Shown here in pieces: positions 3,950 to 64,000 of a stretch of 64,000 nt of DNA. Position numbers and translations under genes: made by a program. Numbering within the stretch: position 1 is the stretch's first letter; each line of letters starts with the position of its first letter. This DNA comes from Styela clava (Eukaryota; Chordata; Ascidiacea; Stolidobranchia; Styelidae): NCBI RefSeq assembly GCF_964204865.1, contig NC_135260.1:7440001-7504000 (forward strand), in the 5' to 3' direction. Below the pieces are notes generated by a model that searched no databases, was not told the DNA's origin, and worked only from the letters and a program-made list of their open reading frames with translations.

Positions 3950-9231
<5,282 letters not shown>

Positions 9232-26980: not shown

Positions 26981-27017
<37 letters not shown>

Positions 27018-33552: not shown

Positions 33553-33736
33553 CTTCATATATTACTCCTCTTTTTGGTTGATGCATGATATAAGTCCCAT
33601 ACATGACAAGCACCAAAATGAATGGCACAAATACAAAAGCAGCGATCCACATTCTCCTGTTGAAGTCAATTCTTTTTTCACTCGAAACAACAGAAAATCC
33701 AATTATTTTCGATCGTTGTACAAAACTAGACGCCAT
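33553..33736 (-). pseudogene. Orphan exon 1 of a sulfotransferase copy (X)
   Basis: A full 184-bp exon 1 on the minus strand has an intact ATG (MASSFVQRSKIIGFS...), signal-anchor segment and GAAG|GTAAG donor. Its downstream side holds intron 1 sequence to about 33280, then stops resembling the other copies; exons 2-7 are absent. Transcribed alone it would encode only a membrane anchor. Interpreted as a truncated duplicate. Confidence 0.85.
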
Positions 33737-36510
33737 GATTTTGTGTAAAACAAATTCATCTGTAATTAACAACTTACCTTTGATTCAGGATTAATTAATT
33801 TTATCTAACTCAAACTATATTCTTCAGCTTACTCGGCTTGCTGTTAAACTGCTTGAAAATTTGCCACATCTCATCATAGATTTCAGCTTTAAAAAATGTC
33901 GCTTTTTTCAACTACTGGATCAATTGCTTCAAAATTTTTTAGTGGTTGAAGATTGTTATTGTTGATAGAATATTTCCTTTGTTGGCTCTATGGGGGTGGT
34001 TCCGAAACTCCAGGTCGCGACCAGGGGTGGATTATGCCCCATTGGTGCCCTAAGCACTGAAGACTTTGGTGCCCCCTTATGTGTAATTTAATTATAAAAA
34101 CAATAAACCACAGTGTGTGTATTATCCACTGAAAATAATCACAACCAACAGTAAATAAACAACTTTAACGAACATTTTTAGGGTTTTTAACTGTGATATA
34201 TAGCCGAAATATATATCGGCCGTTTAATGCTAATATGATATATCGCCAAACACGCAATATCGGGCCGGTATATCGGTTGAGCTCTAATCCTGAGGGAGTG
34301 TGACAATAAAGATTCATTCCTTCAGTCTCACTGTGAATCGAAAAACCAAAGTATACAAGTCACAACTGCAGTTTGAAATTTTACCGGTATCTAGTAGTAT
34401 ACCTCAGAGTGGTTCAAGACTGCTAGGTTGAAGGACCGCAAAAACTTTTGAGGAGGTCTCGCGGGCCGCAAGTCGGAGAAAACCCAAAAGTGATTGAAAT
34501 ATCGCGAGTTTAGTTACTTTAAATTTATTAAACAACGAGAGTTTACCGTTCTGATCAGACTATTATTATGTTGCATGGGTGGTATTCTTTTAAAGAAGAT
34601 GTATAGAGCCTTCAGTTATTGTAAAATGAATTCCCGAGAATTACCGTTGTATTTTCCGCATCTCGTGTTTAATGTCGCTTCAAATTATATTCTTCCGTGG
34701 CAGACATTACTTGAAATCAAACTAGACACTGTGTGATAGGCAAGGAAATGCGTTTCCGCCGTGTTTTCCTTATGTCACCTCTTTTGTGACACTCATTTTA
34801 TTACGGATTGTTATATATATTTGAGTAATTTAAAAAACTTGCAGCTTGAGCAAGCTTAGTGCCATCGCCAAATAACAACCAAGTCCGTCTAAGTTGGTAT
34901 TTCGGGACCTAGCTAAAAAAAAACTGGATGGCGCGGCGTTAAGTCGGCTCTGCGTTTCGTCACTACTGTCACATGGCCCACGCTTGAAAACAGAAGAGTG
35001 TTTTTACTAACATAAAGGCACAAAGTGTTAGAAAAAAAAGGGTTCGACTCTCGGGATCCCAACCCCAGTTGGAATAGCTAAAAATAAACTTAAAAACGTT
35101 CTGCTATCAGATACAAATATACGCTAAAATTGTTTTGTGGGCCGCACGGAATGTATCAGCATGACAGGGTTTGTACCACCCTTGTCTACCTTATCGAGAA
35201 ACTCCCGACTTCGCTGACCACTAGATCGTTGAAATGCGATCGTGAAACCGCCACACAGTGCAAATAGTTCTTTGGTCCAATTGTTGAGGGGAAAAGATTT
35301 TATTTTAAAACAAAAACGCAGCATCAAGGAGAATACTGGAAAGAAAAAACAACAACAATTTCAGAAAACGACTCATAGCCATAGGCCCATTTCGTGTCAA
35401 ATAAGTTTCAGTGTTTATTTTTAATTAATAAAGAAGGGTATTATGATACTCGAAGACGAAAAATAAGCGAACATTTTGAAGTTTGAGTCGTCTGGTGAAC
35501 TCGTAATATTTTATTAAACACTGATAAACTATGCAAAATTGTGCTTCAAAATTTCTGTTGTGCCCCTCTTTGCTTGGTGCCCTAAGCATTTGCTTATATT
35601 GTTTAAATGGTTAATCCAGCGCTGGTCGCGACCCACAGCGGGGTCTTGAAAAAAATTTCGGGGTCTAACTTCCGTGAACATTCAGTCACATATTTTGAAA
35701 GTTAGAAAGTTTCCTCTGCTTTATAATAATCATGATAAACGAAATTGAATTCTCGATTGGTAGAACAGTTATCTGCATACGGGAAGATAACGCGCTGGTC
35801 AATTTAAGAAACAAGTTACCGTTTTCTGAGTCTGTGGCAGATTACTGTACAAGCGAAGTCATGCACTCAATTTGGGTCTTATTTCATTTAAAACAGGTAA
35901 TTGAGTGGAACTGCAGTACTTTGGATTATATATTTAGTTTCTTTTGCGTTTTTTTTTTATTTGATTCAGCAATCCCTCGCAAACGTACCTCAAACTTTAA
36001 ACAACCTAGCTTTAAAAATACGCAGATTTGTAGTCTAAAACTAACGTGAACATGTGTTAACTAAAAGAGAATGCACATCTCCGTGACTGCGTCACGTCGG
36101 GTTCTGATTTTTAATTATTATCTTCTATACTGAAGTGATTGAAGGGATATCATTTTGAAAATTATTGTTGCATACTAGGAAAATTTTAAAATTAGGAATA
36201 AAACTTGAACGCGTAGGGTGTCGATTTTGTTGTACTTCTATGGGTTATCGGCAGAATTTTATATCGCTTCCTTGTGACGAATTTTTCCTTTGACAAAGAA
36301 ATGTGTTTCCATTTTGTCGAAGTAAAGAGAACAAATACTCATGAAATTTGAAAACTCAGAAATCACAATAAATTATATGTCATGTCTGCCTCCAAAATAT
36401 TTATGTATACATGTATAAGTGAGTATCTTTCGCTGCTGGTTGGGGTCGAGGTAGATAGAAACTGAGAAGCGTTTTCTAGCACACTCGTCTTCATGGAAGC
36501 GAGCGGGTAA
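33737..36510. other. Intergenic stretch between X and gene B
   Basis: No exon was recognised apart from a degraded upstream cassette (about 33810-33890). It is filled by an hAT end (about 33991-34020 and 35625-35900) split by a 1604-bp hAT insertion (34021-35624), followed by sequence mirroring the tail of gene A. Confidence 0.65.
34021..35624. mobile_element. 1.6-kb hAT element nested in another hAT
   Basis: Ends CAGGGGTGGATTATGCCCC and TGGTTAATCCAGCGCTG are inverted, followed inwards by GGTGCCCTAAGCA on both sides. GTCGCGAC is repeated exactly at 34013-34020 and 35625-35632, and joining the flanks recreates the hAT end seen intact at 42616. An additional hAT-like end (CAGAGTGGTTCAAGACTG, about 34405) may be nested inside. 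No transposase is recognisable. Confidence 0.88.
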
Positions 36511-36525
36511 CCCAGTACTTACATA

Positions 36526-36531
36526 TTTATT
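36526..36531 (-). terminator. Candidate poly(A) signal, gene B
   Basis: AATAAA on the minus strand, about 105 bases after the stop. Confidence 0.55.
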
Positions 36532-36635
36532 ATCATAGAATATCTTTTTTTTGCTGTAAATCAAGTGGTATAATTACTATAGTCTATATATAGTATGTGC
36601 AGGATGTGGCAGTTGAAATAACTTCTAATCGGTCG

Positions 36636-39600
36636 TCACCAATTAAATCTGCGACCGAGTAGTTTAAAAAGTTTTTCATTGAATGGTGCAAAAAATGATC
36701 GCAGTTTTTTCATATATTCGGGGTTCGCGACACCCCATGCTCCTTTTCTAGTCCTTCCCTTTGCAACCATACAAAAAGTACGTTCTGTTCCAGCGACTAA
36801 AACGTCGTTTCTTTTTACTACTAAAGGTTTGGCAAAGCAATAAAATCCAGACGGTCCCTTCGGAATATTTTCTGGTAAGACAAACTCTGGAATGTGAAGA
36901 AAGTCTTGAACCTAAAGTAAACAAAAACAACGAAACAAGAAAATTGAATAAATAATGATGATGTAGATGATTATTAGTTAACAAGAGAGCAATACTCATA
37001 TATATGGACACGTAAACCAGAGCGGAGCATTCTTCACCTTTGACGTAACCGGTACCCTCAAAAAACTACCGAGTTTCCAGTAGTTCTATAAGTTTTAAAA
37101 CAGTGTTCTCATGCGTAAAAATTAATACAGCAAAATTTTGAATGAAATATCAGATCTCATAGGACTCATTTCAAAATTTAGAAATAAATTAAAGTAATAG
37201 CCTTCTGCCAAAAAAAATCAATCTTTGACCTCTGAAATTTTCAAAGCAATTGATATAGTATTCGAAGAAAAAAGCGATTTTATAATGATGAAGAAAAACA
37301 ACAAGAACAACAACAGAATTATCAAATCGATTCATAGGTCCACTGACGTGTCCAAAAATGATGTAAATATATGAAGCAAAGTCAATGATGGAAGTTTTTT
37401 TATTCTGTTCAAAACCATTTATTTTTTTTCTTTTATTTAGTATATTTCGTTTTTGTACTGAGAATTTTGCAGCGGCTTGTTATTGGACACGAAATGAACC
37501 TATTGGACGTTTTTTTTATGTTGTTGTTTTTGTTGGTATTTATTTTTTGTTGTCATCGTATCGTTTCTTATTAACTACTGGATCAATTTCTTTGAAATTT
37601 CCCGCGGTTGAAGATCGTATTTTTCGCGAGAAGTTCGCTATTACTTTTATATATTCCAAAACACTGTGGGCTCTGTGTGATTCGTTTTGTACTTCGAAAT
37701 TTTGTGTGATGACCTCTTGAAAATGAATACTAATTATTTGTAGCGTTTTTTTGACCTCCCTCGTGCTACGCGAAAATCGGAAGTTTTTTTACGGTACCGG
37801 TACTCAAAGGTAGATTCGCTTTGATTTTCGTGTCCATATATTTGAGCATCGCTCTTTAAACAAAAAAGAGTACTCCCTTAGTTTGTGTACCAGGTTAGGG
37901 TTATGCACAAAAATGGCAAATTTAATACACCATGCATCCATCTGATGCAATGGATTCAAAATTCAGTATATATCAGCCTGTTTTGTCAATTCACACATGG
38001 TTTTTGCCGCACCTGTGATTTTGGCAAATTTGTCATGAACACCCACCTCTTTTATGACTTTAGCAGGATTAGATATAAGTTCCTCACCGTCTACGATATG
38101 GATATCGCTCATGTTGAACACTTTATACCATCTGTGAAACATGATAACAACAGCAAAGTTATGATGCCAACAGAAGGACTTGTCACAACGCGTCACGTAT
38201 GATAAAATGATATATATTATTGGTATCTTTAATGAAGTTATGATTCCCTCCTCCGAACAAGATGCCTCATTGATACCAACTGCTAGCATGACAAAAAACT
38301 ATTGCTTTGGCAAAAGTTTGTAAAATAATTAGGACTCAAAAAATGAGCAATATTATTTACCTTAGTAAATGATAGTAATACAATCCAGTTGTTAGTATAT
38401 GGTTAGTACTCCTTTTTTTAAATAACTGCTCAATATATTCCATTTCCGTTGCACTTTCATTCATTTTTGCAGTTAAATTAGCGGAGTAGACAAGAAGATC
38501 ATCAACCATTTGTTCAAACGTTGTGTTTTTATTGAGATTACCCATCATTATCTGTTATAAAAGTTAAGATCGAGTCGATATGACAATAATTTTATGTGGA
38601 CTAAAAAAAATCATTGGACACGAAATGTACGTATGGATCGCTAGAGGGTTATTACTTTTGATTATTTCAAAAGTTTTTATGGCATTCGTTTAGTGTGTGC
38701 ATTACCGATTTTCATGACCTTTGACCGATGCTTCCAGTCAATTTTTTGAGCGGACGCTCGCTTCCCTGTGCCGTTTCAAAATTCGTCATTCACTTTCTCA
38801 CCTGTCGTACTGTATTTGTTTCGTAGAGTGCGGTGTGTGAAGAGATATTTTAACGGTATTTTTTATAATATTGATTAAATACAAACTCTATTATCGCTAA
38901 GCATGCCGATGTATTGGAACTGCTTTGTGCTGCACCGGTACCGCCAGGTGACTGGACATCGTGTCAAATTTAGTCAGCATCTAGTACAAGAGTACTCAAT
39001 TTCCCAGGTAAAAGGGCCGCATTTTGACCACAAAAGATGCAACGGGCCGCAGAATAATATTACCATTTATTTGTACTATTTAATTCGTTTATTGGTTCGA
39101 TACTGATGTTTAATTTACTTTTTGTATTCATATTTATGCATTTTAGAACATAGTTAATAATGGGGCAATCGTACGTTTCGTATGAAAGTTGGTAATGTCG
39201 TCATCAAGTATTGTACACCTTATTGCGATTCCGCGTGAATCGTGAAGACTACGGTACCGGTAGTCTACTGTGGCAGATTGCAAACCGTACTACTTCGTTT
39301 TGGCGGCCGTCCATATATTTGAGCATCGCTCCCTCGTTTTACATTAAAATTCTGCTATATAATACAACGACGAAAAAGTAGAATATTACCTCCTGGGCAT
39401 AATCTGAATATGTTCTTTCGGTAGGATTGCACAAAACAAGTAAAAGTTTGGCGTGAGGAACAAGCTCTCGAAGATGTTCTGGTGTCGCGAGTTCCCAGTT
39501 GAAGTAGGCCGGTGTTTTTTCAAATGATATTTCGTGAGGTAAAACTTTGGCCAACATGGGTCTGAACAACAAAAATACTGTACTTATATTTCAAACAACA

Positions 39601-41627
39601 CCACAATAACAGTTTGTTTTATAATTTTGTCTTCAAGTATTTAAATCGCTGAAAATCTTATTTAATGATATTCAGCTATTTGATTTGTTTAACATTTTAT
39701 AGATCTTAAAATAAATATTTTATGGGTTTGTTTGTAATTTGGTTCCAAACTAATATATTGTTTAGAACCTTAATCTTGATCTTCGTTCACGCAATAGAGG
39801 ATTTTGAATAGATAATGTTCTGTTAAGAGCCAGCTCAAGTAATCAAACAATTGCATATAGTATCAGATTATTTCATATATTAGGGTCTTAACAACTATAC
39901 AAAATTAGTTACAATGTGAACATTTTTACGTGTATGCTTTTAGGCCCAATTTATATATATGCGGTCGTTCAAAAAAGTGGGGTTCTTTGGGTGCTACTTT
40001 GATCATCGGGTGCATACGAAGTAAACTCCTAAGAGCACCTGTTCCACACTTCTCAACCCCGATTCCAATGACATCTGGTATGCGCTGAACTGGTTGCTGA
40101 AGATATAAAATTGCTATCATGGAAATCGCCTTTCTTGAGAAGTTATATATATTTTTCATAAGCTTGAAATGTTGCAAATGAAACATAACGGAACAACTCA
40201 AGTTGTGTTTGTGTATGGATCAAATGGCGTTGCAAGATACAAGTATGAAACATATTGCTGCTATTTTATAGAAATGAATTTATTATATATTATAGTAAAA
40301 GTAAGAATAGAACAAAATAAACTTTTCAAAATCTAATAATCTCACCCTTCGTGAAACTTTCACCAAAATTAATAGCTTATCGCGTTCCCTCTTCTTTGGG
40401 GACAAAAGTTTGGTCAGTGGGTATGGGAAAGGAGACATGGTGAACCTTTTTTTTATAGTTGAATAGTGTGTCAAATGAGTTACAACAACCGACTCCGGTT
40501 ACGTTAGTATGTAATGACATTTTGCATGGCCTGCGTTTACAATTTGGAATCAAATTGCATAATAAGATGCAATTTTGAAACATAAAAAATAAAATCATAC
40601 CAAAATGAAGAAAAACGCTTCGAAATGGTGGCAAACCTCACCTTTTGAAAAACTTTTGATAACGCTCTTTTGGCTGCTTCATATTCAACTAATAGTTTAT
40701 CGCGATGTCTTTCTTTTGATGTTTTCTTGTAATCTTGTTTGATTTCATATTCAACCCACTCATTTTCTTAAATAGTTCGAAAGAAGTGAATATATTTTCA
40801 ATAAAATTGACTATTATATGATATTTTTCAGTAATCTTCAAAGCGACACTGTTATCCGATCACAATGTTTTATCGCAATGTAGTTCTGATTGTTCCCGCT
40901 TGGATATCAACAAAGTGACATTATGAGATATAAACTTTAGAAAAAGTGGAAGTAGATGACGAAATCTCTCTAGAAATAACTGAGAGCGAGGTGCAGAAAT
41001 AAGAGCCCACGGTCAGCCAGACTTTACGGTAACCTGACGCAAACTTTTCAAAACAACAATTTTTGTATGTTGTCAATAGGCATAACTTCTTATTATCTTA
41101 ACTATAAGTATTTATTAATCCCAACGGTATGTGCTACTATACTGCTATCGCCTAATCAACAGCCAGCCAGCTTACCTTTGACGCCACAGTCGGCCTACGT
41201 CTGTGCTAGCGAGCAGAACGCGTTGACAAGACGCATTAAAGATAGGAATCAATGAATGAGAGGAGCTCCGGAAGTATTTGTACCTAGATGACGCACAACC
41301 TGAACAACTCTAACTTGGTATACATGCTATGTTCAGGTTGTGCGGTATCTTGGTACGAATACTTCGGGAGCACCGAATTATATATTAGAGAATGAAAACT
41401 TGGTACTTTGTATTATTTTGCTTCTTACCTTCATATATTATTCCTCTTTCTGGTTGATTCATGATATAATTCCCATACATGATAAGCAATAAAATGAATG
41501 CCACAAATACCAAAGCAGCGATCCACATTCTCCTATTGAAGTCAATTCTTTTTTTACTCGAAACAACATAAAATCCGAATGTTCTCAATCGTTGCACAAA
41601 ACATGATTTTGTGTAAAGCAAATTCAT
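36636..41627 (-). CDS. Heparan-sulfate 3-O-sulfotransferase-like gene B (complete, altered start)
   Basis: Seven exons on the minus strand: 41627-41429, 40766-40642, 40096-39930, 39561-39390, 38551-38361, 38131-38047 and 36911-36636 (stop 36636-36638). They join in phase to 404 residues. Domains follow gene A: signal anchor in exon 1, coiled stem with NEWVEYEIKQDYKKTSKERH, PAPS loop EKCGTGAL, EPHFFERP, EKTPAYF, PTERTYSDY, then the C-terminal half ending LGRRFNW. The usual start ATGGCGTC has lost eight bases, so the usual ATG is out of frame; an ATG 24 bases upstream (41627) is now in frame and gives MNLLYTKSCFVQRL. The last exon changes several residues (CMVAKGRTR instead of CMTGKGRTR), perhaps early decay. 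Tail-to-tail with A and head-to-tail with C. Intron 6 carries a fold-back element. Confidence 0.82.
36971..37858. mobile_element. Fold-back element in gene B intron 6
   Basis: Inverted ends (ACAAGAGAGCAATACTCATA near 36980 and TTGAGCATCGCTCTT near 37843) match those of the element in gene A intron 6, and the interior carries the same CAAAGCAATTG palindromic pair. Sequence past about 37300 mirrors 63420-64000. Confidence 0.65.
38990..39180. mobile_element. hAT fragment in gene B intron 4
   Basis: CAAGAGTACTCAATTTCCCAGG begins directly next to ATCTAGTA (the complement of TACTAGAT), the site that also flanks hATs in gene A and D2. Interior sequence (GGGCCGCATTTTGACCACAA...) matches 62200-62430 in inverted orientation. 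One end only is recognisable. Confidence 0.65.
41257..41373. mobile_element. Small palindromic MITE in gene B intron 1
   Basis: GAGCTCCGGAAGTATTTGTA and TACGAATACTTCGGGAGCAC form inverted ends and CACAACCTGAAC/GTTCAGGTTGTG continues the stem. The mirror copy is at 58963-59076 in D2, so it predates the inverted duplication. Related to the larger element at 8742-8991. Confidence 0.8.
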
Positions 41628-41677
41628 CCGGAATTACCAACTTAATTTTGATCCAGGATTAATTAATTTTATCTAAC

Positions 41678-41763
41678 TCAAACTATATTCTTCAGCTTAC
41701 TCTGCTTGCTGTCAAACTGCTTGAAAAACTGCCACATCTCGTCATAGATTACAGCTTTGTACC
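41678..41763 (-). other. Exon-like cassette upstream of gene B
   Basis: On the minus strand, an acceptor-like CCCGCAG precedes an 86-bp open frame ending in TGA, with peptide core YDEMWQFFKQFDSKQSKLKN. Equivalent frames lie upstream of C, E and D2. The product is not recognised; see findings. Confidence 0.5.
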
Positions 41764-43170
41764 CTGCGGGCGTAATAATTTGCTGTTATTATTACGTAAT
41801 GAATTCGCGTAGCAATCAATGAGGTTCTAATGTCATTTCAAGCAAATTCATTCAAATTGACCAATCTAAGTGTCTGGTATAAGAACCTCTACCCATAAAA
41901 TAAGGACGTTTCTTAGAAATAAGTACAAAAACATTTTCTAAGACAAAAACCTTCAAAATAGAGACAATTCTTAGAAATAAGGACGTTATGGCAGCCCTGG
42001 CTATAGGAGACCCTTGTTATCGGTCGTTTTGTCTGTCCAGATCTCGCGTCTTAACGGCTGGACCGATCTAGTGAAATTTCACACGCGGGTTTATCCTGTC
42101 TCCCTAGTACTGTGCGTTTTGTAGAGGATTCGGATTGGAGTTTCGTTTCTATGGTAACAACGAAAAAACTCGCCGAACGTTATGAAACTTCCAATATTCT
42201 CACAATTCTCGTTAACCATTTTCAAATATTTTTTGGTTAACCATGTCGAAAATTGAAATCCCTAAAACGCCACCTTCCGCAGAAGAAACACTCTATCGAT
42301 TAAGTCGTCTTTCGTCTTGATACTCCAGGAACTTGAGAAGCTTTAGGGAATTTAGTGGACGGTATTTTTCTCAATTTTTAGCCACATTTTATCAATCACG
42401 CAAGTATGACTAAGAAACGCGCAGCGTTTGAAATGAACTGGAAATGAGCTTACTCGGCCTGCTGTCAAACTGCTTGAGAAACTGCCACATCTCGTCATAG
42501 ATTTCAGAATTGAAAAATATCGTTTTTTTCAACTACTGGACCAATTGCTTCGGAATTGTTTAGTGGTTGAAGATTGTTATTGTCGATAGAATATTTTCTC
42601 TTGTTGGCTCTATGGCAGTGGTTCCCAAACTCCAGGTCGCGACCCACAGCGGGGTCTTGACAAGATTTTTCGGGGTCTAACTTCCGCTAAACATTCATTC
42701 ACATAATTTGAAAGTTAGGAAGTTTTTGCTGCATTATAATAACCATGATAAACGAAATTGAATTCTCGATTGTTAAAACAGATCTCTGCATACGAGAAGA
42801 TAACGCGCTGGTCAATTTAAAAAACAAAAAACCGTTTTCTAAGTCTGTGACAGATTACTATACAAGGAAATACAAGTCTTGCAATCAATATGGGTTTTAT
42901 TTCATTTGAAATAGATGCAATTTTTAAAAGTTCACAACATTAAAGTGACTAAAATTAAGTAACTTGATTATATCATAAAAGTATTGGTATTGAGGCTTGT
43001 AATAGAGTATTTACAACATTCCCGTTTTCTCAATGAAACCATTTATTACTTTTACGCTACATATTTTACATATATAAATATCTTGCGCTGCTGGTTGGGG
43101 TCGAGGTAGATAGAGATTTCCTAGCACACTCGTCTTCACGGAAGCGAGCGGGTAACCCAGTACTAACAAA
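41764..43170. other. Intergenic stretch between genes B and C
   Basis: No full exon. It holds a second, truncated upstream cassette (about 42443-42510), an hAT end beginning at 42616 (CAGTGGTTCCCAAACTCC), and sequence mirrored at 57060-58560 between D1 and D2. Confidence 0.65.
42616..42950. mobile_element. hAT fragment with one intact end
   Basis: CAGTGGTTCCCAAACTCCAG plus GGTCGCGACCCACAGCGGGG is a typical hAT terminus. The mirrored copy ends at 57728 between D1 and D2, and a third, split copy flanks 34021-35624. The opposite terminus was not found. Confidence 0.7.
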
Positions 43171-43191
43171 TTTATTATCATAGAATATCTT

Positions 43192-43197
43192 TTTATT
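43192..43197 (-). terminator. Candidate poly(A) signal, gene C
   Basis: AATAAA on the minus strand about 85 bases after the stop; a second copy is at 43171-43176. Confidence 0.55.
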
Positions 43198-43281
43198 GCT
43201 ATAAATCAAGTGGTATAATGTCTATAGTCTATTCTATAGTATGTACAGGATGACGCAGTTGAAATAACTTCTAATCGATCG

Positions 43282-46200
43282 TCACCAATTAAATCTGCGA
43301 CCGAGTAGTTTATACAATTTTTCATTGAATGGTGCAAAAAATGAGCGCAGTTTTTCCATATATTTGGGGTTCGCGACACCCCATGCTCCTTTTCTAGTTC
43401 TTCCCTTTCCAGTCATACAAAACGTACGTCCTGTTACAGCGACTAAAACGCCGTTTCTTTCCACTACTAAAGGTTTGGCAAAGCAATAAAATCCAGACGG
43501 TCCCTTTCGAATATTTTCTGGTAAGACAAACTCTGGAATGTGCAGAAAGTCTTGAATCTTAAAAATGAGAGATTTATATAAACGAGAGTCATGACAAATT
43601 TTTCTAATAATTTAATTGTTTAGTTGAATTAATTTCTGTGCGAAGAGCATTGAAATAATATAAACAACTTGTATTTATCGATGAAAATCGAAAATTGAAA
43701 AAAATGCTGCTTTAAAGCATCTATCGTTGAATCTGGGATTTACTCTCTGATTCCTCTAATTAATTTGATCTGGAATTAAAGTTATTGGTCGAATAGTTTA
43801 TGTACACCCACCTCTTTTATGACTTTAGCAGGATTAGATATAAGTTCTTCACCGTCTACAACGTATATATCGCTCATATTGAACACATTATACCATCTGT
43901 ATGAAATATAAATATTGAAAATAATTACAGTAGCGTAGTGTCAAACTGCTCACGACATTTTGCATCTACATCGATGTGTCACGATTGGCGAAGCGAAAAA
44001 AACTAGTTACTAGTACTTCATTCTATAAGTTTTTCATCTTTATTAGGACTGAGAAAAAAACATCAAAAAAATGAGGGAGAAAAGCTCAAATATATGGACA
44101 GAAGGTCCAATAACTAACCGCAGTGTCGAAAGCCGACGCTACTCACACCCAGCAGTAGAACCGAGTTTGCAAAAGTAAAACTTCACGATCGGCGGAATAA
44201 AAACGGCGTTCCCATAAACCTAAACTAATAGTAATTTAATAATAGCCTTCTAGTGACATCAACAATCTGTTAACCACCGAGAATTACAAAGAACTTGGTC
44301 CAGTAGTTGATGAGAAAAGCGATTTTCCATAACAAGATGAAAAATACTAACATTAACAACAAACATAAGAATGGCGTCTACCTTAGTAAATGATAGTAAT
44401 ACAGTCCAGTTGTTAGTATATGGTTAGTAATCTTTTCTTTTTTTAACTGCTCAATATATAACATTTCATATCCGCTCATATTCATTTTTTCATTTAAATT
44501 GGCGGAGTAGAGAAGAAGGTCATCAACCAATTGTTCAAACGTTTTTGTTGCGTTAAGAGTATGCATCAATATCTGTTATGGGATGCATAAATAAAATCAT
44601 TAAGATTCGTCCATGCTATTATTTACATGTTGTTGGGAAAATCTGAAAAGCAAGTTTCGAAAAATTTAATTTGAAATACCAATCATATTAATGTTATAAA
44701 CGACATCGATACCAAAACAAGAGTTCAATCACGAATGCCAAATTAATAAAGTTCACGCCTACGCGACATTCTATTGAATATCCTGTACAGATTATAACAA
44801 TAACATTATAACAAGACAGAAATTAAAAAATGAAATGCCTTTGTAACTATAAGTGCTTGAATCATGAGCATAAAGAAGAAATACAATATAAGTCGATAGA
44901 TTGTTACCTCCTGGAAATAATCTGAATATGTTCTTTTTGTAGGATCGCACAAAACAAGTAGAAGTTTGGCGTTAGGAACAAGTTCCCGAATATATTTTGG
45001 TGTCTCGAGTCCCCAGTTGAAGTAGGCCGGTGTTTTTTCAAATGATATTTCATGAGGTAAAACGTTGGCCAACTTAGGTCTGAACAAAAATATTTCAAAG
45101 ATAATATAACTTAAGTGACGGTTTGTTTGATACTATTATACCCACGGCTTTTGCCTCGATATATTTTGGTTTATAATATGATGTTCCGTGTCTGTAATTT
45201 AAATCAGTGATGTCCTCAGACCAGCGAATTTATTTCATAACAAGCTTTTCGTCTTAAATTTGTCGCGAATTATGTATATGGGTTTTGGAATAATTTCGGA
45301 GTTTTAGACAGTCTTGGAAAAAAAATATAAAGTGGAATGCTTGGTGTAAATTGACATATTTATGAAATGGTGTCATCAACATGTGTTTGTTTATTGAAAA
45401 GTTCAAAATATTTTTCCAGAAAATTCTTATATATAAATCTTCACTGCTAAAAATGGGGCAATAACTCAGACTTCAATTGATATATCATTAAAAGTGTTAT
45501 AAATTTTTCTTTTCCAAAAACAGGAACAATGAAAAAAAACACGTTTCATTAACTGAAATCATAGTTTACCTTAAAGGACGACAGACATTTAATGTTAGGG
45601 TTCGAATTTCCGTCTGGTTTATACATATGACGTTGAAAACTTTAGTTAATATTTAATCATCTGACATTACAGATATTCAAGAAATAAAATCGATTTGAAA
45701 GTTGTTCTAAATTTTCCTTCGCCCAATATATACTTATCGCATAAAATATTTGTTTCAGGTTCGAAGAGTCACCATGAAAATTAATTAAAATGAAAACATT
45801 TTTACGTATATGCTTTTAGGCCCAATTTATATAAATCCGGTCGTTCAAAGAAATGGGCTTCTTTGGGTGCTGCTTTGATCATCGGATGCATACGAAGTAA
45901 AGCCCTAAGAGCACCTGTTCCACACTTCTCAACCCCGATTCCAATGACATCTGGTGCACGCTGAACTGGTGGCTAAAGATATGAATTATATTTTAATTTG
46001 GAGTGGAATGAAATAAATTCTGTTGGCTCTGCTCGTGCTGAGCAACATAAAGAACGTGATTGATATCGCACCGCGATGGTTTGTAGATTCAAAGTTAGTG
46101 GAGAATACTTTCATCGGGCAACGCTGTTGGCTTAGTTGGCCATCCACAACTATTAATTCAAATTAATGACTGCACAGTCATTAATATTTTCGTGATAATT

Positions 46201-48028: not shown

Positions 48029-48101
48029 GATTTTGTGTGAACAAATTCATCCGTAATTAACAACTTAAACTTTGATCTGGGATTAATTTATTGTATCTAA
48101 C

Positions 48102-48184
48102 TCAAACTATATTCTTCAGCTTTCTCGGCTTGCTGTCAAACTTGAGAAACTGCCACATCTCATCATAGATTTCAGCTTTGTACC
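48102..48184 (-). other. Exon-like cassette upstream of gene C
   Basis: The 83-bp open frame follows CCCGCAG and ends TGA. It matches the cassettes upstream of B, E and D2 but lacks exactly one codon (the Gln of LKQFD), so the frame is kept. No known product. Confidence 0.5.
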
Positions 48185-48981: not shown

Positions 48982-49684
48982 GGTACAAAGCTGAAATCTA
49001 TGATGAGATGTGGCAGTTCTTCAGGCAGTTTGACAGCAAGCCGAGTAAGCTGAAGAATATAGTTTGAGTTAGATAAAATATTTCTGGATTAAAGTTAAGT
49101 TGGTAATTACGAATGAATTTGTTTTACACAAAATTTGACCTCAACAGGAGAGGAGTCATATATGAAGATAAGAAGCAAAGTATTTTTAAGTACTTAATTT
49201 TCCATTCTCCAATATCTAATTCATTGATTCCTATCTTTAATGCGCCTTGTCAACGCGCTCTGCTCGCTAGCGCAGCCACAGATTGGCTTCAGAATAACGG
49301 GAACACCGTTTTTATTCCGCCGAGCGTGGCGTTGTACTTTTGCGAACTTGGTGCTACTGCTAAGCTAAGACACTTCCGTATGAGTCGCGTCGGCTTTAGA
49401 CACTGCGGTTAGTTATTGGACCTTCTGTTCATATATTTGAGCTTTGCTATCTTTCTTGAGGTTTAATTCTCAGTCCCAATGATGATGAAAAACTTATAGA
49501 ATGAAGTACTAGTTTATTTCGTTTCGCCAATCGTGACGCATCGATGAAGATGCAAAATGTCGTAAGCAGTTTGACACCACGCTAGTGATTTTCAATATTT
49601 GTAATTATTTTCAATATTTATAATTTATACAGATGGTATAAGGTGTTCAATATGAGCAATATATACGTCGTAGACGGTGAGGAA
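48982..49684 (+). pseudogene. Sulfotransferase remnant E (pieces of exon 1 and exon 6)
   Basis: Pieces of one gene copy are fused. An intact upstream cassette (48982-49067) is followed by an exon 1 remnant (about 49113-49167) from which the signal-anchor part is deleted and whose donor GGTAAG reads GATAAG. Part of intron 1 then jumps at about 49290 to intron 5-like sequence, and exon 6 starts at 49633 (WYKVFNMSNIYVVDGEE) but is cut near 49684 in mid-exon, running into intron 6 sequence and the LINE. No protein can be expected. It mirrors remnant F across the LINE. Confidence 0.85.
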
Positions 49685-49739
49685 CCCAGATTCAACGATA
49701 GATGTGTGTGTGGTATGGTAATATATGGCGCTTTAAACA

Positions 49740-52512
49740 ATTTGAGTCTTTTGCGCCAGACAATTTAAATCAAAATTTTGTATATGCCTATAGTACTCTC
49801 TTGGTAGATTTCACAAAATCAACAAGAGCAGGGAAAATGCTAGGGTCGAGTAAGATAGCTTTGAGCTGAAAATCAATGCCACAATCGCGGCATTTTATCT
49901 TTATTATACGTCTTTCATTTCTATATGCACGACAGTTCATTAAAAAATGTTCTACTGTCTCTGGAACATTACAGAAATCGCAAAGTCTATTATTATGACA
50001 TCCTATTTTATGGAAGTGCCCATTTGAACAGCAATGTCCCGTCTGGAGTCGAAATAAAATTTTGTCCATTATTCGTGGTGACCAAGTGGAATTCTTGATG
50101 CTGTCTTCAATTGAGGGGAAAATTGTCTTGTAATGAAACGCTTGGTCACTGTGTATAAAATGTTGATCCCATTTATTAGCGCAGAATTGTCGAATTTGTG
50201 ATTTGACTTTGTTTTGTGATTGTGATAATCTTTTGTCCACATCGACTTTCGCCGCTGATACCTTTGCTATTTTGTCGGCGACTTCGTTACCCGGAATGCC
50301 AACATGTCCTGGAGCCCATAGTAGTGTGATTTTGCATCCTTGTTCCTGTAACTCAAAAAGACAAGTCTGAATATTTGAAGATATATTACTAATTTGATCC
50401 GAGTTATTATTTATAGCGTGTACAGCAGACATACAATCCGTTATGATAAGTATATTCCCTTTATAGTTATTTTTTGACCATGTAAGGACACTATATATTG
50501 CAAAAACTTCGCAATCAAACGAGGAACAGTCTTTGTCTAGCCTAAAACACACACGAGAATTATTGTATGGAACATAAACCGCAGCACCGCATTTGTCAAC
50601 AATTTTTGCTCCATCGGTATAAATATGGACGTGTGATTGATAGGATTCATTTATATAATCTAAACTTATAGCTTTTAATTGGTCGGGCGTATACCAAGGA
50701 AAAAGTATATTCGAGAATGCATCGTCAATATTAATTTCGTCCAAATACCATGGGGGAATTTTTTCGGCTTTAATAATACCAATATCCAATTTGTCAATAT
50801 CGAAAGTCCTTGCAATCATACCAAATGTACGAAATTTTGGAGAGTTGGGAAAAATTTCATGCCATGAGTGTTCGATGACTTCGTGGCAAGGATGGTCAAC
50901 AAATGTTAGCAGTTTAGCCTTATATAAGAGGCATAATTGTAGTCGTCGTATACTCAATGGCATCTCATTACAACAAACTTGTAAAGCAATTTTAGGCGTA
51001 CTCATCATGCCACCTGCAGCGATGCGTAGACATTGAGATTGTATAATTTCGAGTTTTCTTATGGCATTTATTGATGCTGAAAAACACGCTTTCATACCAA
51101 ATTCAATAATGGGTCGATCAATGATGGGTAGGGATCTGTACAATGACAAAAGGGGTGATTTGTTAGCTCCCCAGCTAGTTCCAATAAGCAAACGCTGCAG
51201 ATTAATCCGTTTACTACATTTTTGTACAACATATTCGATATTTTTCTCTTATAATTTAAGCGCCTATTGAAATAGACTCCGAGGTATCTTACTTCATTCC
51301 TGACTGGTAGTATTACACCATTTATGTGTAGTTGTATTGGTGGTAATTTTCTCTTTCGGGTGAAGAGTACAACTATTGATTTTGTGACCGGGATCTTAAA
51401 ACCCCATTTGTTGCACCAGGACTGAATACAATCCAACGAGTTCTGAGAGGAAATGATTGAATCTTCAATTTTGAGCCCAATGTGCCATAGAGCGCTATCG
51501 TCTGCAAACAATCCAACATTATCTGATGAAATAGTACTAGGCATATCGTTTATCATTATATTGAAAAGCAGTGGACTGATTACGCTCCCTTGAGGAATTC
51601 CGTTTTCTAATGAGAATATACTTGAAAGACGACTGCCTACTCTAACCTGAAATGAACGATTCGTCAGGAAAGATGCAACAAAAGCCAAATTTTCCCGGTG
51701 ACATCAATGTTATATAGTTTGTATAACAGTTCTCTTTTCCATACCATGTCATAATCTTTTTCCATGTCTAAGAAAATGCCAAGTACAGATCTTTTATTTG
51801 GTAAAGCTTTATATATGTCATCGTGTAATTTTAGATATGCATCAGTCGTAGATCTCCTCCACCTAAAACTGCTTTGTTCTCTACATAATATGCCATTTTT
51901 TCAACAAACCACTTCAGTCTGCGAGCTATAATTCTTTCCAAGACCTTACATAAATTGCTAGTTAAAGATATAGGCCTATATGAAGATGGTTGGTCTTTTT
52001 GTTTATTGGATTTAAGAATCGGAATTACAACAGAGAGTTTCCAGGTATCTGGAATACTCCCTTTGTTCAAAATCAAATTGGACAATTTGAGTAATAGGTC
52101 TTTACATTCTGCGGGCAATTTTATAAGCATCGCGTAGCAATTATTAGCAATGATTAGCCTTGTTACGTCATGTGAGGATTCGAATGCGATCTTTCTTTGA
52201 AGAAATTTCGGGGTGTAGTTTTCATTGCTACTGACCGCCGAGAACGAACTCGCCAGAAGCTCAGCTTTTTTGGAATCTTCGATTGCTGTTATACCATTGT
52301 GTTTAAGGCCGGGGATTTGTTCGTATACCTTGCTTTTAGTGAAGCGCCTAACCATTTCCCATACGTTGCTGAGTTTTTCATTCTTGTCCAGTGAGCTACA
52401 GTAATCATGCCAACTCTACCTTTTAGTCTTCAATATTATTCTTCTTGCTTCAGATCTACGTTTTTTATACATTATCACATTTTCGATGGACATCGACCTT
52501 TTCATTTCATTA
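49740..52512 (-). mobile_element. 5'-truncated, degenerate LINE with RT and RNase H
   Basis: On the minus strand, reverse-transcriptase pieces occur at 52355-51831 (SSYRPISLTSNLCKVLERII) and 51688-51092 (GIPQGSVISPLLFNIMIND and the catalytic LFADDSAL). A frame at 51191-49788 adds the RT tail, RNase H and a cysteine-rich C-terminus. RNase H shows HIYTDGAK, CEVFAIY, ITDCMSAV and GHVGIPGNEVADKIAK with its acidic residues; the end has CCSNGHFHKIGCHNN and CDFCNVPETVEHFLMNC. The endonuclease is missing. At least two frameshifts and an in-frame stop (near 52410) make it inactive. RNase H after RT points to the I/LOA-like group of LINEs. It is inserted in intron 6 sequence of a sulfotransferase copy, and its 3' end is duplicated in inverse orientation at 52513-52690. 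Confidence 0.88.
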
Positions 52513-52690
52513 AATGAAATGCCGCGATTTGGGCATTGATTTTCAACTCAAAGCTATCTTACGCGACCCTGGCATTTTCCCTGCCCTTGTTGATTTTATG
52601 AAATCTACCAAGAGAGTACTATAGGCATATACAAAATTTTGATTTAAATTGTCTGGCGCAAAAGACTCAAATTGTTTAAAGCGCCATCTA
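52513..52690 (+). mobile_element. Inverted copy of the LINE 3' end
   Basis: Plus-strand sequence starting ATGCCGCGATTTGGGCATTG encodes the last LINE residues (LVDFMKSTKRVL, stop) and the 3' tail, matching 49740-49894 in reverse. It marks the right-hand arm of the palindrome; the switch occurs at about 52512/52513. Confidence 0.85.
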
Positions 52691-52801
52691 TTACCATGCC
52701 ACACACACATCTATCGTTGAATCTGGGTTTTATTTTTTAATTCCTCTAATTAATATGATCTTGAATTAAAGTTATTGGTCGATTTTTTTAGGTACACCCA
52801 C

Positions 52802-53761
52802 CTCTTTTATGACTTTAGCAAGATTGGATATAAGTTCCTCACCGTCTACGACGTATATATTGCTCATATTGAACACCTTATACCACCTGTATAAATTATA
52901 AATATTGAAAATAATTACAAATATTGAAAATCATTAGCGTAGTGTCAAACTGCTTACGACATTTTGCATCTTCATCGATGCGTCACGATTGTCGAAGCGA
53001 AATAAACTAGTACTTAATCATATACTGTTTATTACTACTTTCGTGCAGTTACCAACTACTAGCATGACATAACAAATTCTCTATTGCATCGTCAAGTTTT
53101 TTATCCTTATTGGGACTGAGAAAAAATGCTTAAAAATTGCTTAAGTTTCACATATGCATCGATACGTCACGATTGGCGAAACGAAATAAACTAGTACTTC
53201 ATTCTATAAGTTTTTCATCCTCATTGGGACTGAGAATTAAACCTCAAAAAAGAAAGCAAAGCTCAAATATATGAACAGAAGGTCCAATAACTAACCGCAG
53301 TGTCGAAAGCCGACGCGACTCATACGGAAGTGTCTTAGCACTAGCAGTAGCACCGAGTTCGCAAAAGTACAACGCCACGCTCGGCGGAATAAAAACGGTG
53401 TTCCCATTGATCTAAACTAATAGTAATTCAATAATAGCCTTCTAGTGACAACAACAATCTTTAACCAACGAGAATCGCAAAGAACTTGGTCCAGTAGTTG
53501 ATGAGAAAAGCGATTTTCCATAAGATGAAAAATACTAACAATAACAACAAACATAAGAATAGCGTCTACCTTAGTAAATGATAGTAATACAATCCAGTTG
53601 TTAGTATATGGTTAGTAATCTTTTTTTTTAAATAACTGCTCAATATGTAACATTTCCGATCCGCTGTCATTCATTTTTGCAGTTAAATTGGCGGAATAGA
53701 GAAGAAGGTCATCAACCAATTGTTCAAACGTTTCTGTTGCATTAAGATTATGGATCAATAT
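52802..53761 (-). pseudogene. Sulfotransferase remnant F (exons 5 and 6)
   Basis: On the minus strand exon 5 (53761-53570) is 192 bp instead of 191: an extra base in an A-run (AAAAAAAAAG) shifts the frame and leads to TAA. Exon 6 (52886-52802) is full length and open. Exons 1-4 are absent, since at about 53930 the sequence switches to the 5' flank of D1. Exon 7 is absent because the LINE occupies intron 6. It is the mirror of remnant E but less deleted. Confidence 0.88.
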
Positions 53762-53997
53762 CTGTTATGAAATGCATAAATAAAATCATTAAGATTCGTC
53801 CATGCTATTATTTACATGTTGTTGGGAAAATCTGAAAAGCAAGTTCCGAAAAATTCAACTTGAAATACCAGTCATATTGAAGTAAAAAAACTTCTTCAAT
53901 ACCAAAACAAGAGTTTAATCACAAATTGCCAAATCAAAAAAAATTATGGATTAAAGTTAAGTTGGTTTTTACGAATGACTTTGTTTCACACAAAATC

Positions 53998-56900
53998 ATG
54001 GCGTCTAGTTTTGTACAGCGATTGAATATAATTGGATTTTCTGTTGTTTCGAGTAAAAAAAATATCGACTTCAATAGGAGAATGTGGATCGCTGCTTTTG
54101 TATTTGTGGCATTCATTTTATTGCTTATCATGTATGGGAATTATGTCATGAATCAGCCAAAAAGAGGAGTAATGTATGAAGGTAAGAATCAAAATATATA
54201 TATTGTAAGCATCAAGTTTGCATTCTCTAGAATCTAATTCATTGATTCCTATCTTTAATGCGCCTTGTCAACGCACTCTGCTCGCTATCATAGGCATAGA
54301 CTGGCTGTGGTGTCAAAGTGCATACCGGCTGACTGTTGATTAGGCTATAGCAGTGGTAGCAGGTACCGTTGATATTAGCGGATAGTTGCAATTGAGATAA
54401 TAAACAGTTATGCCAATTAACAACATACAAAGATTGCTGATTTAACATGTTAGCGTCGGGTTACTGTAACGTCAGGCTGACAGTAGTCCCTCATTTTTGC
54501 ACCTCACAGACTAAGATACTACTATAATTCGGCAAGAGCTTTCGTCATCTACGATCAACAAACAGAACGCAAATGCGAGCTCGAAAGGGACGTTCGTGAT
54601 TATAAACGACTTTCACCATTTACTAACAACGTCGCTTTAGCGATTACTGAAAAACTCAAATATTATTCAATTTTTATTGAAAATATATTCATTTCTTCCG
54701 AACTATTTAAGAAAAAGGCTGGATTAAATATGAAATCAAAGAAGATTCTCAGAAAACATCTGAGGAAAGAGATCGCGATAAATTATTAGTTGAATATGAA
54801 GCAGCCAAGAGAACGTTAGCAAAAATTTTCCAAAAAGTGAGGTTTGCCACAGTTTTGAAACGTTTTTCTTCATTTTGGTGTGCTTTTACTTTTTAAGTTT
54901 TAAAATTACAGTTTATTATGCAATTTGATTCTCAATTGTAAACACAGGTCATGAAAATGCCGGTAAACACTAACGCAACCGGAGCCAGTTTTGTTGTAAT
55001 TCATTTAAAAACGATTCAAGTATATGAAAATTGTTTATCATGTACGAAAGGCTTTTTATACAAAACCTTTCATTTATTCCCATTAATCATTTATAATAAC
55101 AACATAATTTTAACAAAGTTCGAGGCAACATTCTTCGTTGATGATCACGGTATCGCGTTACCTATACCTACTGCCGAAATCTTTTGTCAAACATCCCAAT
55201 GATACATATTTTGGCGAACTATTATCGGTAAGCCACTATTTTATTAACAGCCGCTTATTAGTATTGATACAGCGAAATCATGAGCTCATAATAATAAAAA
55301 ATAGCAATGCATGAAAATGTTATAATCAAGTGTGAATTGGAATATAATATATTAAAACTGGTTCAGTCATGTAGATATGTCCTTCTACTTGTTTTGTGCG
55401 ATCCTACAAAAAGAACATATTCAGATTATTTCCAGGAGGTAACAATCTATCGACTTATATTGTATTTTTCTTTATGCTCATGATTCAAGCACTTATAGTT
55501 ACAAAGGCATTTCATTTTTTAATTTCTGTCCTATTGTTATAATCTGTACAGGATATTCAAAAGAATGTCGCGTAGGCGTGAACTTTGATAATTTGGCATT
55601 TGTGATTGAACTCTTGTTTTGGTATCGATGACGTTTATAACATTATTATGATTGGTATTTCAAATTAAATTTTTCGGAACTTGCTTTCCAGATTTTCCCA
55701 ACAACATGTAAATAATAGCATGGACGAATCATAATGATTTTATTTATTGATTCCATAACAGATATTGATGCACACTATTAACGCAACAAAAACGTTTGAA
55801 CAATTGGCTGATGACCTCTTTCTCTACTCCGCCAATTTAAATGAAAAAATGAATATGAGCGGATGGGAAATGTTATATATTGAACAGTTAAAAAAAGAAA
55901 AGATTACTAACCATATACTAACAACTGGACTGTATTACTATCATTTACTAAGGTAGACGCCATTCTTATGTTTGTTGTTAATGTTAGTATTTTTCATCTT
56001 GTTATGGAAAATCGCTTTTCTCATCAACTACTGGACCAAGTTCTTTGCAATTCTCGGTGGTTAACAGATTGTTGATGTCACTAGAAGGCTATTATTAAAT
56101 TACTATTAGTTTGGATTTATGGGAACACTGTTTTTATTCCGCCGATCGTGACGTTTTACTCTTGCGAACTCGGTTCTACTGCTAAGTGTGAGTAGCGTCG
56201 GCTTTCGACACTGCGGTTAGTTATTGGACCTTCTGTCCATATATTTGAGCTTTTCTCCCTCATTTTTTTGATGTTTTTTTCTCAGTCCTAATAAAGATGA
56301 AAAACTTATAGAATGAAGTACTAGTCACTAGTTTTTTTCGCTTCGCCAATCGTGACACATCGATGTAGATGCAAAATGTCGTAAGCAGTTTGACACTACG
56401 CTACTGTAATTATTTTCAATATTTATATTTCATACAGATGGTATATTGTGTTCAATATGAGCGATATATACGTTGTAGACGGTGAAGAACTTATATCTAA
56501 TCCTGCTAAAGTCATAAAAGAGGTGGGTGTACATAAACTATTCGACCAATAACTTTAATTCCAGATCAAATTAATTAGAGGAATTAGAGAGTAAAACCCA
56601 GATTCAAAGATAGATGCTTTAAAGCAGCATTTTTTTCAATTTTCGATTTTCATTGATAAATACAAGTTGTTTATATTATTTCAATTCTCTACGCACAGAA
56701 ATTAATTCAACTAAATAATTAAATGATTAGAAAAATTTGTCATGACTCTCGTTTATATAATTCTCTCATTTTTAAGGTTCAAGACTTTCTGCACATTCCA
56801 GAGTTTGTCTTACCAGAAAATATTCGAAAGGGACCGTCTGGATTTTATTGCTTTGCCAAACCTTTAGTAGTAGAAAGAAACGGCGTTTTAGTCGCTGGAA

Positions 56901-57052
56901 CAGCACGTACGTTTTGTATGACTGGAAAGGGAAGGACTAGAAAAGGAGCATGGGGTGTCGCGAACCCCAAATATATGGAAAAACTGCGCTCATTTTTTGC
57001 ACCATTCAATGAAAAACTGTATAAACTACTCGGTCGCAGATTTAATTGGTGA
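53998..57052 (+). pseudogene. Sulfotransferase copy D1 lacking PAPS-binding exons
   Basis: Exons present: 1 (53998-54181), 2 (54712-54836), 5 (55762-55952), 6 (56438-56522) and 7 (56777-57052), all open with normal splice sites. Exon 3 and most of exon 4 are gone: intron 2 sequence runs to ATATGTCC (about 55380) and joins directly to CTTCTACTTG inside exon 4, whose 3' end and donor remain. The loss removes the PAPS loop and the catalytic EKTPAYF, so enzyme activity is not expected. Exons 3 and 4 total 339 bp, so splicing exon 2 to exon 5 would keep the frame and give about 286 residues (anchor, stem and C-terminal half). It is closest to gene C, which it mirrors. Poly(A) signals lie at 57137 and 57158. 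Confidence 0.87.
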
Positions 57053-61700: not shown

Positions 61701-63226
61701 TAAATTTGCTTTTCTAGAGATAAATGGGAAACCCATGTGTCTTATTTGTCAAAGGAGCAAGCCGAGGCTAGTAAATTTACAACGACACCACGAACTGAGT
61801 TCAAAATTGCATATCAAAGATTTTAAATTACTTTTGAACAGAATGCAGACTCAGAACTCTCATTAAGAATAAAACGAGAATATCGGTCGGAGACCGAAGA
61901 CTTATCGATCGAAACTGCGGTTTCAATTCATGACTCTATAGCGACACCGCGTGTCCCATCACTGATTAATTAATAACTCGCTAATTATACGACATAAAAT
62001 TAATAGGCTTCTGGTCCGAGATATGAAGAATGCACATGCAAAATTTGGAGCAGACCACGCCTTCGTGAGATATCGCGTGCATCTAACAGACAAACAGACA
62101 AATATCTATCAACATACTTACCGATCTAAAGATCGATAAGTAACAATTGTAAAACGTTTTTGTAATTGAAAAGCATTGTTGCTGTTAGGTATAATTATAT
62201 TTTTTCTATGTTGTGAAATTATGTCATAGTTTTCGCTAGGGGAGAAGTTGCAGCTGCAAACTTACGAATGCCCCATCAACTATGTTTTAAAATGCATAAC
62301 AATGAATACAAAAAGCAAATTAAACATCAGTATCGAACTAATAAATGAATTAAATAGTACAAATAAATGGTAATATTATTCTGCGGCCCGTCTTATCTTT
62401 TGTGGTCAAAAGCGGCCCCTTTACCTGGGAAGTTTACACACCGCACTCTACGAAACAAGTACAGTACGACAGGTGAGAGAGTGAACGACGAATTCTAAAA
62501 CGGCACAGGGAAGCGAGCGTCCGCTCAAAAAATTGACTGAAAGCATCGGCCAAAGGTCATGAAATGGGTAATGCACACACTAAACGAATGCCATAAAAAC
62601 TTTTGAAATAATCAAAATTAATAATCTTCTAGCGATCCATACGTACATTTCGTGTCCAATGATTTTTTTTAGTCCACATAAAATTACTGTCATATCGACT
62701 CGATCTTAAGTTTTATAACAGATAATGATGGGTCATCTCAATAAAAACACAACGTTTGAACAAATGGTTGATGATCTTCTTGTCTACTCCGCTGATTTAA
62801 CTGCAAAAATGAATGAAAGCGGAACGGAAATGGAATATATTGAGCAGTTATTTAAAAAAAGGAGTACTAACCATGTACTAACAACTGGATTGTATTACTA
62901 TCATTTACTAAGGTAAATAATATTCTTCATTTTTTGAGTCCTAATTATACTACAAACTTTTGCCAAAGCAATAGTTATTTGTCATGCTAGCAGTTGGTAT
63001 CAATGAGGCATCTTGTTCGGAGGAAGGAATCATAACTTCATTAAAGATACTAATAATATATATCATTTTATCAAACGCGACGCGTTGTGACAAGTCCTTC
63101 TGTTGGCATCATAACTTTGCTGTTGTCATCATGTTTCACAGATGGTATAAAGTGTTCAACATGAGTGATATCCATATCGTAGACGGTGAGGAACTTATAT
63201 CTAATCCTGCCAAAGTCATAAAAGAG
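58740..63226 (+). CDS. Heparan-sulfate 3-O-sulfotransferase-like gene D2 (last exon beyond window)
   Basis: Six exons: 58740-58923, 59628-59752, 60299-60465, 60844-61015, 62722-62912 and 63142-63226. They encode 308 residues, in phase, of an expected 399 or so; exon 7 should lie just past 64000. Start MASSFVQRLRTFGFYVVSS, signal anchor, stem NEWVEYEIKQDYKKTSK, PAPS loop EKCGTGALRSLLRMHP, EPHFFEQP, EKTPAYFNWGL, PTERTYSDYAQE, NATK-type site replaced by NTTF, and HIVDGEELISNP. It is closest to gene B, which it mirrors, but keeps the normal start codon. Intron 4 holds a hAT remnant with part of a transposase. Read-through of the exon 6 donor would add a short tail and stop at 63310, as in B. Confidence 0.85.
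58963..59076. mobile_element. Small palindromic MITE in D2 intron 1
   Basis: Mirror copy of 41257-41373, with ends CGGTGCTCCCGAAGTATTCG and AATACTTCCGGAGCTCC. Confidence 0.8.
61424..62440 (+). mobile_element. hAT remnant in D2 intron 4
   Basis: The left end CAGGGGTTCTTAACCCGCC follows TACTAGAT (61416-61423) directly. The right part (62200-62440) matches the hAT fragment in gene B (38990-39180) in inverse orientation, but its final terminus is lost. It includes a zinc-finger fragment of a transposase (61636-61866). Confidence 0.7.
61636..61866 (+). pseudogene. hAT transposase N-terminal (BED-like zinc finger) fragment
   Basis: The open stretch reads ...RVFKSAWNNKFAFLEINGK, then PMCLICQRSKPRLVNLQRHH and ELSSKLHIKDF before a TAA at 61864. 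The Cys-x2-Cys followed by a His-rich helix (HHELSSKLH), after an aromatic-rich lead, resembles the BED-type finger at the start of hAT transposases. No start codon is obvious and no catalytic domain follows, so it is a fossil. Confidence 0.65.
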
Positions 63227-64000
63227 GTGGGTGTTCATGACAAATTTGCCCAAATCACAGGTGCGGTAAACACCATGCGTGAATTGACAAAACAGGCTGA
63301 TATATACTGAATTTTAAATCCATTGCATCAGATGGATGCATGGTGTATTAAATTTGCCATTTTTTCGCATAACCCTAAACTGGTACATAAACTAAAGGAG
63401 TACTTTTTTTTGTTTAGAGAGCGATGCTCAAATATATGGACACGAAAATCAAAGCGAATCTACCTTTGAGTACCGGTACCGTAAAAAAACTTCCGATTTT
63501 CGCGTAGCACGAGGGAGGTCAAAAAACCGCTACAAATAATTAGTATTCATTTTCAAGAGGTCATCACACAAAATTTCGAAGTACAAAACGAATCACACAG
63601 AGCCCACAGAGTTTTGGAATATATAAAAGTAATAGCGAACTTCTCGCGAAAAATACGATCTTCAACCGCGGGAAATTTCAAAGAAATCGATCCAGGAGTT
63701 AATAAGAAACGATACGATGACAACAAGAAATAAATACCAACAAGAAAAACAACATGATAAAAAAAAACGTTCAATAGGTCCATTTCGTGTCCAATAACAA
63801 GCCGCTGCAAAATTCTCAGTACAAAAACGAAATATACTAAATTAATAAAAAAAAAGAAATGGTTTTGAACAGAATAAAAAAACTTCCATCATTGACTTTG
63901 CTTCATATATTTACACCATTTTTGGACACGTCAGTGGACCTATGGATCGTTTTGGTATTTCTGTTGTTGTTCTTCATCATTATAAAATCGCTTTTTTCTT
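63227..64000. other. D2 intron 6, start of fold-back element
   Basis: No exon. From about 63417 (AGAGAGCGATGCTCAAATAT) it matches the fold-back element of gene B intron 6 in mirror orientation. D2 exon 7 would be expected to the right of the window. Confidence 0.7.

Follow-up and report, generated by a model that had tools for sequence, protein, structure and literature searches.

A diverged inverted duplication of HS3ST-like sulfotransferase genes in the genome of Styela clava

The closest described counterparts of the structure reported here come from human and yeast genomes, and the comparisons that follow draw on excerpts of the papers cited. Human non-recurrent inverted duplications with a disomic spacer have been explained by a fold-back model, and 13 of their sequenced junctions carry 2-8 bp of inverted microhomology (PMC3907307). 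On the human Y chromosome, palindrome P8 combines arms of ~38 kb with a spacer of 3.4 kb, and the arms of such palindromes are more than 99.9% identical through gene conversion (PMC6790999). Here we describe an inverted duplication of genes related to heparan sulfate 3-O-sulfotransferase (HS3ST) in the ascidian Styela clava, lying in and just beyond a stretch of 64,000 nucleotides (the window) of contig NC_135260.1, called C14 below, with window position 1 at C14:7,440,001.

All coordinates without a contig name are those of the window, and positions above 64,000 continue on the same contig. With 140 kb of added flank the examined sequence came to 204 kb; the genome searched amounts to 376.6 Mb over 379 contigs, of which C14 accounts for 22.07 Mb. 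The palindrome occupies 32,933-68,232 (~35 kb), ending 4.2 kb beyond the window. Its left arm (32,933-49,898, 16,966 bp) and its right arm (52,514 to the window end at 64,000 and on to 68,232, 15,719 bp) are long, collinear and reverse-complementary, and they are separated by a short spacer of 2,615 bp (49,899-52,513). Comparing the window with itself by BLAST returned a single dominant set of inverted matches, collinear except for indels and 92.7-95.8% identical per block, with a score of 6,411 bits against 46.4 bits for the best inverted match in 20 dinucleotide shuffles of the window. All seven inverted matches of at least 500 bp and at least 90% identity in the 204 kb fall inside 32.9-68.2 kb; six lie on the palindrome diagonal and one, between exon 7 of B and exon 7 of C', lies off it. 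The mirror structure is a bounded inverted duplication of HS3ST-like sulfotransferase genes. A sequence-only reading had proposed a large diverged palindrome with arms of at least 11 kb and a centre near 50.2-51.0 kb, visible as a continuous anti-diagonal in a dot-plot. The anti-diagonal is there, indels excepted, the structure is well centred, and the palindrome proves real beyond the size and bounds that could be seen at that stage.

Over the whole palindrome, the arms differ at 630 of 13,240 aligned columns (4.76%) and by 53 indels. The part within the window differs at 386 of 9,529 columns (4.05%), with 2.8% in exons and 4.3% in the rest. These counts omit 48,078-49,287 and its counterpart 53,417-53,948, where different deletions in each arm leave the sequences unalignable.

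The genes follow the same symmetry. On the left, both on the minus strand, lie B (36,636-41,604), an HS3ST-like gene whose start codon is gone through an 8-bp deletion and whose remainder is open, and C (43,282-48,028), which is intact with seven exons and 399 aa. On the right, both on the plus strand, lie the inner gene C' (53,998-57,052; D1 in the sequence-only reading), where exon 3, the greater part of exon 4 and almost the whole upstream region are missing, and the outer gene B' (from 58,740 through the window end at 64,000; formerly D2), which is intact with 399 aa and has its exon 7 beyond the window at 64,350-64,625. Each arm therefore holds one intact gene, C on the left and B' on the right, and both read outward from the palindrome centre, a point that bears on whether the arms might give rise to hairpin RNA. 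A further gene, E, stands head-to-head with C and survives as a left fragment (48,957-49,685, plus strand), with partial exon 1, intron 1 and partial exon 6, and as a right fragment (52,708-53,941, minus strand) from the region of exons 5-6. The proposed mirror order B, C / C', B' is upheld by a tree of eight copies, in which the mirror partners B/B' (support 100/98) and C/C' (100/100) are sisters, as are X1/X2 (100/99) on contig C9. The idea of a two-gene unit stands as far as these genes are mirrored and falls short in that the duplicated block also holds E, a fragment Z and a long interspersed nuclear element (LINE) and runs out of the window. The mirror pairs show a synonymous divergence (dS) of 0.061 (B/B') and 0.047 (C/C'), whereas the pairs B/C and B'/C reach 0.197 and 0.239; the exon sets vary by pair, C' entering without exons 3-4 and B' without exon 7. 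An older duplication had thus already separated B from C when the mirror duplication took place.

The centre of the palindrome is the LINE. It lies on the minus strand, the left-arm LINE running from ~49,703 to 52,507, with Pfam RVT_1 and RNase_H domains, relatives throughout the genome and a 3' end that can be read. The right arm retains just its final ~200 bp, and the LINE body at 49,899-52,513 has no mirror copy there; the spacer is thus present once, between source and inverted copy, as in the fold-back model. Among the best 40 of 100 candidates, at least 78 stretches genome-wide match the spacer, and at least 11 besides the spacer itself cover its bases 1-2,242 at 90-96%. The LINE 3' end sits at the identical place, with the same flanking bases, in both arms, and the insertion therefore predates the duplication. 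The junction itself, at 52,505-52,523, holds ~6 bases that match neither parental LINE end. At the corresponding point, ~52,507, all eight LINE copies compared, out of 19 other loci fetched, are uninterrupted, so the junction lies within the LINE. A 36-bp pattern taken across it occurs once in the genome. A scan with an open reading frame (ORF) of the LINE found no relative among viral contigs; in the window no tRNA was found, and no Rfam family reached its gathering score.

The outer ends carry information on the direction of copying. To the left of the palindrome lies gene A (26,166-32,160, plus strand, intact, 399 aa), and the left outer end at 32,933 falls within its 3' flank, continuous with A; B and B' carry 3' flanks homologous to this one. 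At the right outer end only the last part of an A-type flank is found, ending at 68,232, and a dispersed repeat (68,234-68,790) abuts it. Because the left end is continuous with the flank of A and the right end is a cut-off copy of such a flank, the left arm is most simply taken as the original and the right arm as the inverted copy. A stretch resembling a 3' untranslated region, in plus orientation at 68,836-68,980, may be a remnant of the original 3' end of E.

How could such a structure have arisen? The explanation we prefer, at a probability of roughly 0.7, is a single inverted duplication by fold-back or template switching, followed by independent decay of the arms. A block of at least ~17 kb, made up of the end of A's 3' flank, fragment Z, B, C, the head-to-head gene E and the 3' part of the LINE, which would have sat in intron 6 of E, would have been copied once, in reverse, beside itself. 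The event may have been fold-back priming or a replication template switch after a break in the LINE; the copy would have joined the original within the LINE and left ~2.6 kb of it as spacer. The arms would then have decayed separately, each retaining one intact gene. Traces of loss are seen on both sides. The right arm lacks ~1.68 kb and 158 bp that are found in other copies (130 bp of the latter recur in A), and the left arm lacks 225 bp, 58 bp and 1,030 bp; of these 1,030 bp, only 134 bp are found again in A, and a dispersed repeat makes up ~270 bp. A stretch of 571 bp is present in the left arm only. In the right arm, a 267-bp element with hAT-like ends (hAT being the family name that we assume for them) lies at 67,526-67,792 between CTATCAAC and CTATCGAC. 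At the corresponding point of the left arm stands CTATCAAAGTATCGAC, which resembles an excision footprint, so the element is probably older than the duplication.

Several observations weigh against this explanation. Divergence is overdispersed among windows along the arms (p 3e-7) and peaks at 7.5% in 39,500-40,145 and at 12.7% in 36,409-36,766, so one age cannot fit all stretches. Inverted homology at the junction is at chance level, since of 2,000 pairs of random positions 466 attain its local score of 6, and it is therefore the architecture that argues for fold-back priming; this score has to be read in view of the several percent of divergence with which the junction has aged. Finally, the adjacency of the arms is seen here in the assembled contig alone.

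Some of the unevenness may go back to exchange between copies. Sites that tell A/B' from C/C' number 12 below 36,760, in the 3' end of B, and B is C-like at 8 of them, compared with 3 of 20 such sites above that point; there is weak evidence that the 36,409-36,766 peak reflects an exchange of B with a C-type copy, off the mirror axis. Three-way patterns with A show no clustering in 27-30 kb (permutation p 0.71) and are not significant in 31.6-33 kb alone (p 0.09); pooled over both stretches they are clustered (p 0.0001). Of the 106 sites in the A-aligned stretch at 27-30 kb where B and B' differ, A has the base of B at 56 and that of B' at 36. Gene A is itself uneven. Its identity to B is 92-97% in exons 3-7 and only 65-75% in exons 1-2, which makes A a mosaic, noted over 26,166-27,228, and suggests that sequence was once exchanged up to a breakpoint between exons 2 and 3.

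Other histories have to be weighed against a single fold-back event. A palindrome without spacer might have formed first, by sister-chromatid fusion or by a strand switch at a replication fork as in origin-dependent inverted-repeat amplification (ODIRA), and a later asymmetric deletion at the centre could have taken the inner part of the LINE out of one arm, so that the present spacer remained. The ~6 foreign bases at the junction and its lack of significant inverted homology are what end joining can leave, and secondary rearrangements that lengthen the spacer are proposed in the available text of PMC10766186. Such a course is possible; we regard it as doubtful, since it requires one extra event and no trace of an earlier centre was seen. 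It is improbable that the block was first duplicated in tandem and one copy then inverted. In favour of this course, B and C are neighbours on one strand of the cluster, and the surroundings of F and Z show older rearrangements, but two events would be needed, one inversion breakpoint would have to hit the very LINE at which the other arm has its inner end, and at the right outer end A's flank is present as a truncated copy. As for a palindrome maintained for a function by conversion between its arms, in the manner of mammalian sex chromosomes, the large arms, the short spacer and the genes in both arms are all in place. Arms kept up in this way would be ~99.9% identical, and those of Styela are far from this value; the longest substitution-free run in the inner part spans 229 aligned columns with gaps ignored, each gene pair has one broken member, and the signals of exchange that were found lie off the mirror axis. 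With the arm divergence and indels given above, homogenising conversion from arm to arm, which the sequence-only reading had suggested, is not evident, and we hold this origin to be the least probable of all. Nothing found here points to a function of the mirror shape itself.

The same reading had also warned of an assembly artefact. Two haplotypes of one locus might have been joined head to head, and in a very polymorphic species a divergence of ~4-5% could be allelic; according to an excerpt of PMC7749112, most palindromes seen in the first assembly of Adineta vaga did not reappear in a later one. Against this stand the outer ends, where homology stops sharply and the flanks differ, on a single gapless contig that carries both arms and no N in 204 kb. 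Of 48 inverted matches of at least 300 bp in this sequence, three join the outside left to the outside right, and these are 305-351 bp long and 73.5-86.2% identical. A 1.5-kb probe from the arm gave two full-length matches, the next reaching at most 442 columns, and no other near-identical arm copy was found (best 40 of 1,181 candidates). Protein matches of at least 70% identity lie on C14 and C9 only, among the matches listed (104 of 146 candidates scored). A fold-back artefact within a single molecule would give near-identical arms, unlike those observed. Judging from the assembled sequence, an artefact of either kind is unlikely.

Set beside the described systems, the Styela duplication resembles the human ones of PMC3907307 in having the inverted copy next to its source, a spacer of a few kb and a LINE at the junction, some of the human junctions likewise carrying a LINE or a short interspersed nuclear element (SINE). 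It differs in that, in the excerpt of that paper, the human events are mostly terminal and recent with microhomologous junctions, whereas this one is interstitial and old (~4-5% divergence) and its junction homology is not above chance. With palindromes P8 and P6 of the human Y it shares gene-bearing inverted repeats and a short central spacer (PMC6790999, PMC3723533); the Styela arms are ~95% identical, in contrast to those of the Y. Yeast foldback inversions and ODIRA, as far as the excerpts of PMC10622511 and PMC10766186 go, likewise present an inverted duplication that is tied to one point and whose centre was rearranged afterwards, but the Styela locus comes without a selection experiment, a known origin or a short inverted junction repeat. 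A literature search by title and the start of the abstract turned up no HS3ST palindrome, which is not proof that none is in print.

The genes themselves are seven-exon genes whose sulfotransferase domain is most similar to that of HS3ST. The Pfam family PF00685 matches A with 77.6 bits and C with 71.3 bits at a cut-off of 22, and among solved structures HS3ST1 comes closest to A (E 7.6e-37, aligned residues 106-399). A scan for relatives of protein A found none in the genome contig collection covered, with no eukaryote collection among those scanned. The motif LRDPSER of HS3ST1, which we take to have a role in binding 3'-phosphoadenosine 5'-phosphosulfate (PAPS), aligns with LCNPTER in A and LCDPTKR in C, and its Arg is replaced by Cys in A, B', C, F, X1 and X2. 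Any 3-O-sulfation activity of these proteins on heparan sulfate may differ as a consequence of this replacement.

An older palindrome of the same kind lies on another chromosome. At C9:1,971,241-1,986,571, X1 (minus) and X2 (plus) stand head-to-head in seven inverted pieces of at least 200 bp, 76-89% identical, around a spacer of ~2.2 kb; X1 lacks a start codon and carries a frameshift, and X2 is open with 392 aa. It shares with our locus the same gene, the mirror layout and the pairing of a broken with an open partner, and differs in having a single gene per arm and no B-C block. Tentatively, inverted duplication may be the main way in which the HS3ST-like subfamily expands, each mirror pair leaving one survivor. 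In the tree of eight copies the three sister pairs (B/B', C/C' and X1/X2), on two chromosomes, are all inverted and have one broken member each, and older inverted neighbours are found within the same cluster, A against B and C against E. Inverted repeats from one event may seed the next.

A few observations stand beside these. In the protein search described above, distant HS3ST-like neighbours in opposite orientation occur at C5:8.41-8.43 Mb, C8:21.27-21.28 Mb and C3:10.278-10.281 Mb; C16:10.278-10.285 Mb holds three HS3ST-like matches on one strand, and at C18:13.69-13.87 Mb seven of eight agree in strand. Elsewhere on the contig of the window, C14:7,570,749-7,580,828 and 7,580,833-7,590,912 form a tandem pair of 10,080 bp at 99.99% identity, which is either a very recent duplication or a duplicate made by the assembly. 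Near the left end of the window, the ORF at 7,159-7,440 (minus) looks like a SKP1 exon by eye, with no Pfam match at E 1, and the ORF at 13,069-13,392 (plus) was recognised by eye as resembling an exon of Sm protein G.

Overall, the structure is an ordinary, well-resolved interstitial inverted duplication in a decaying gene cluster. Its value lies in being a readable natural example of such an event in an animal genome, in which one can distinguish the junction, the source arm and the copy arm and compare the first of these with uninterrupted copies of the same LINE. It illustrates how a mirror duplication doubles a gene pair, of which a different gene is then kept in each arm. If the subfamily has indeed gone through repeated inversion duplications, the cluster would offer a means of testing whether inverted repeats seed further inverted duplications.

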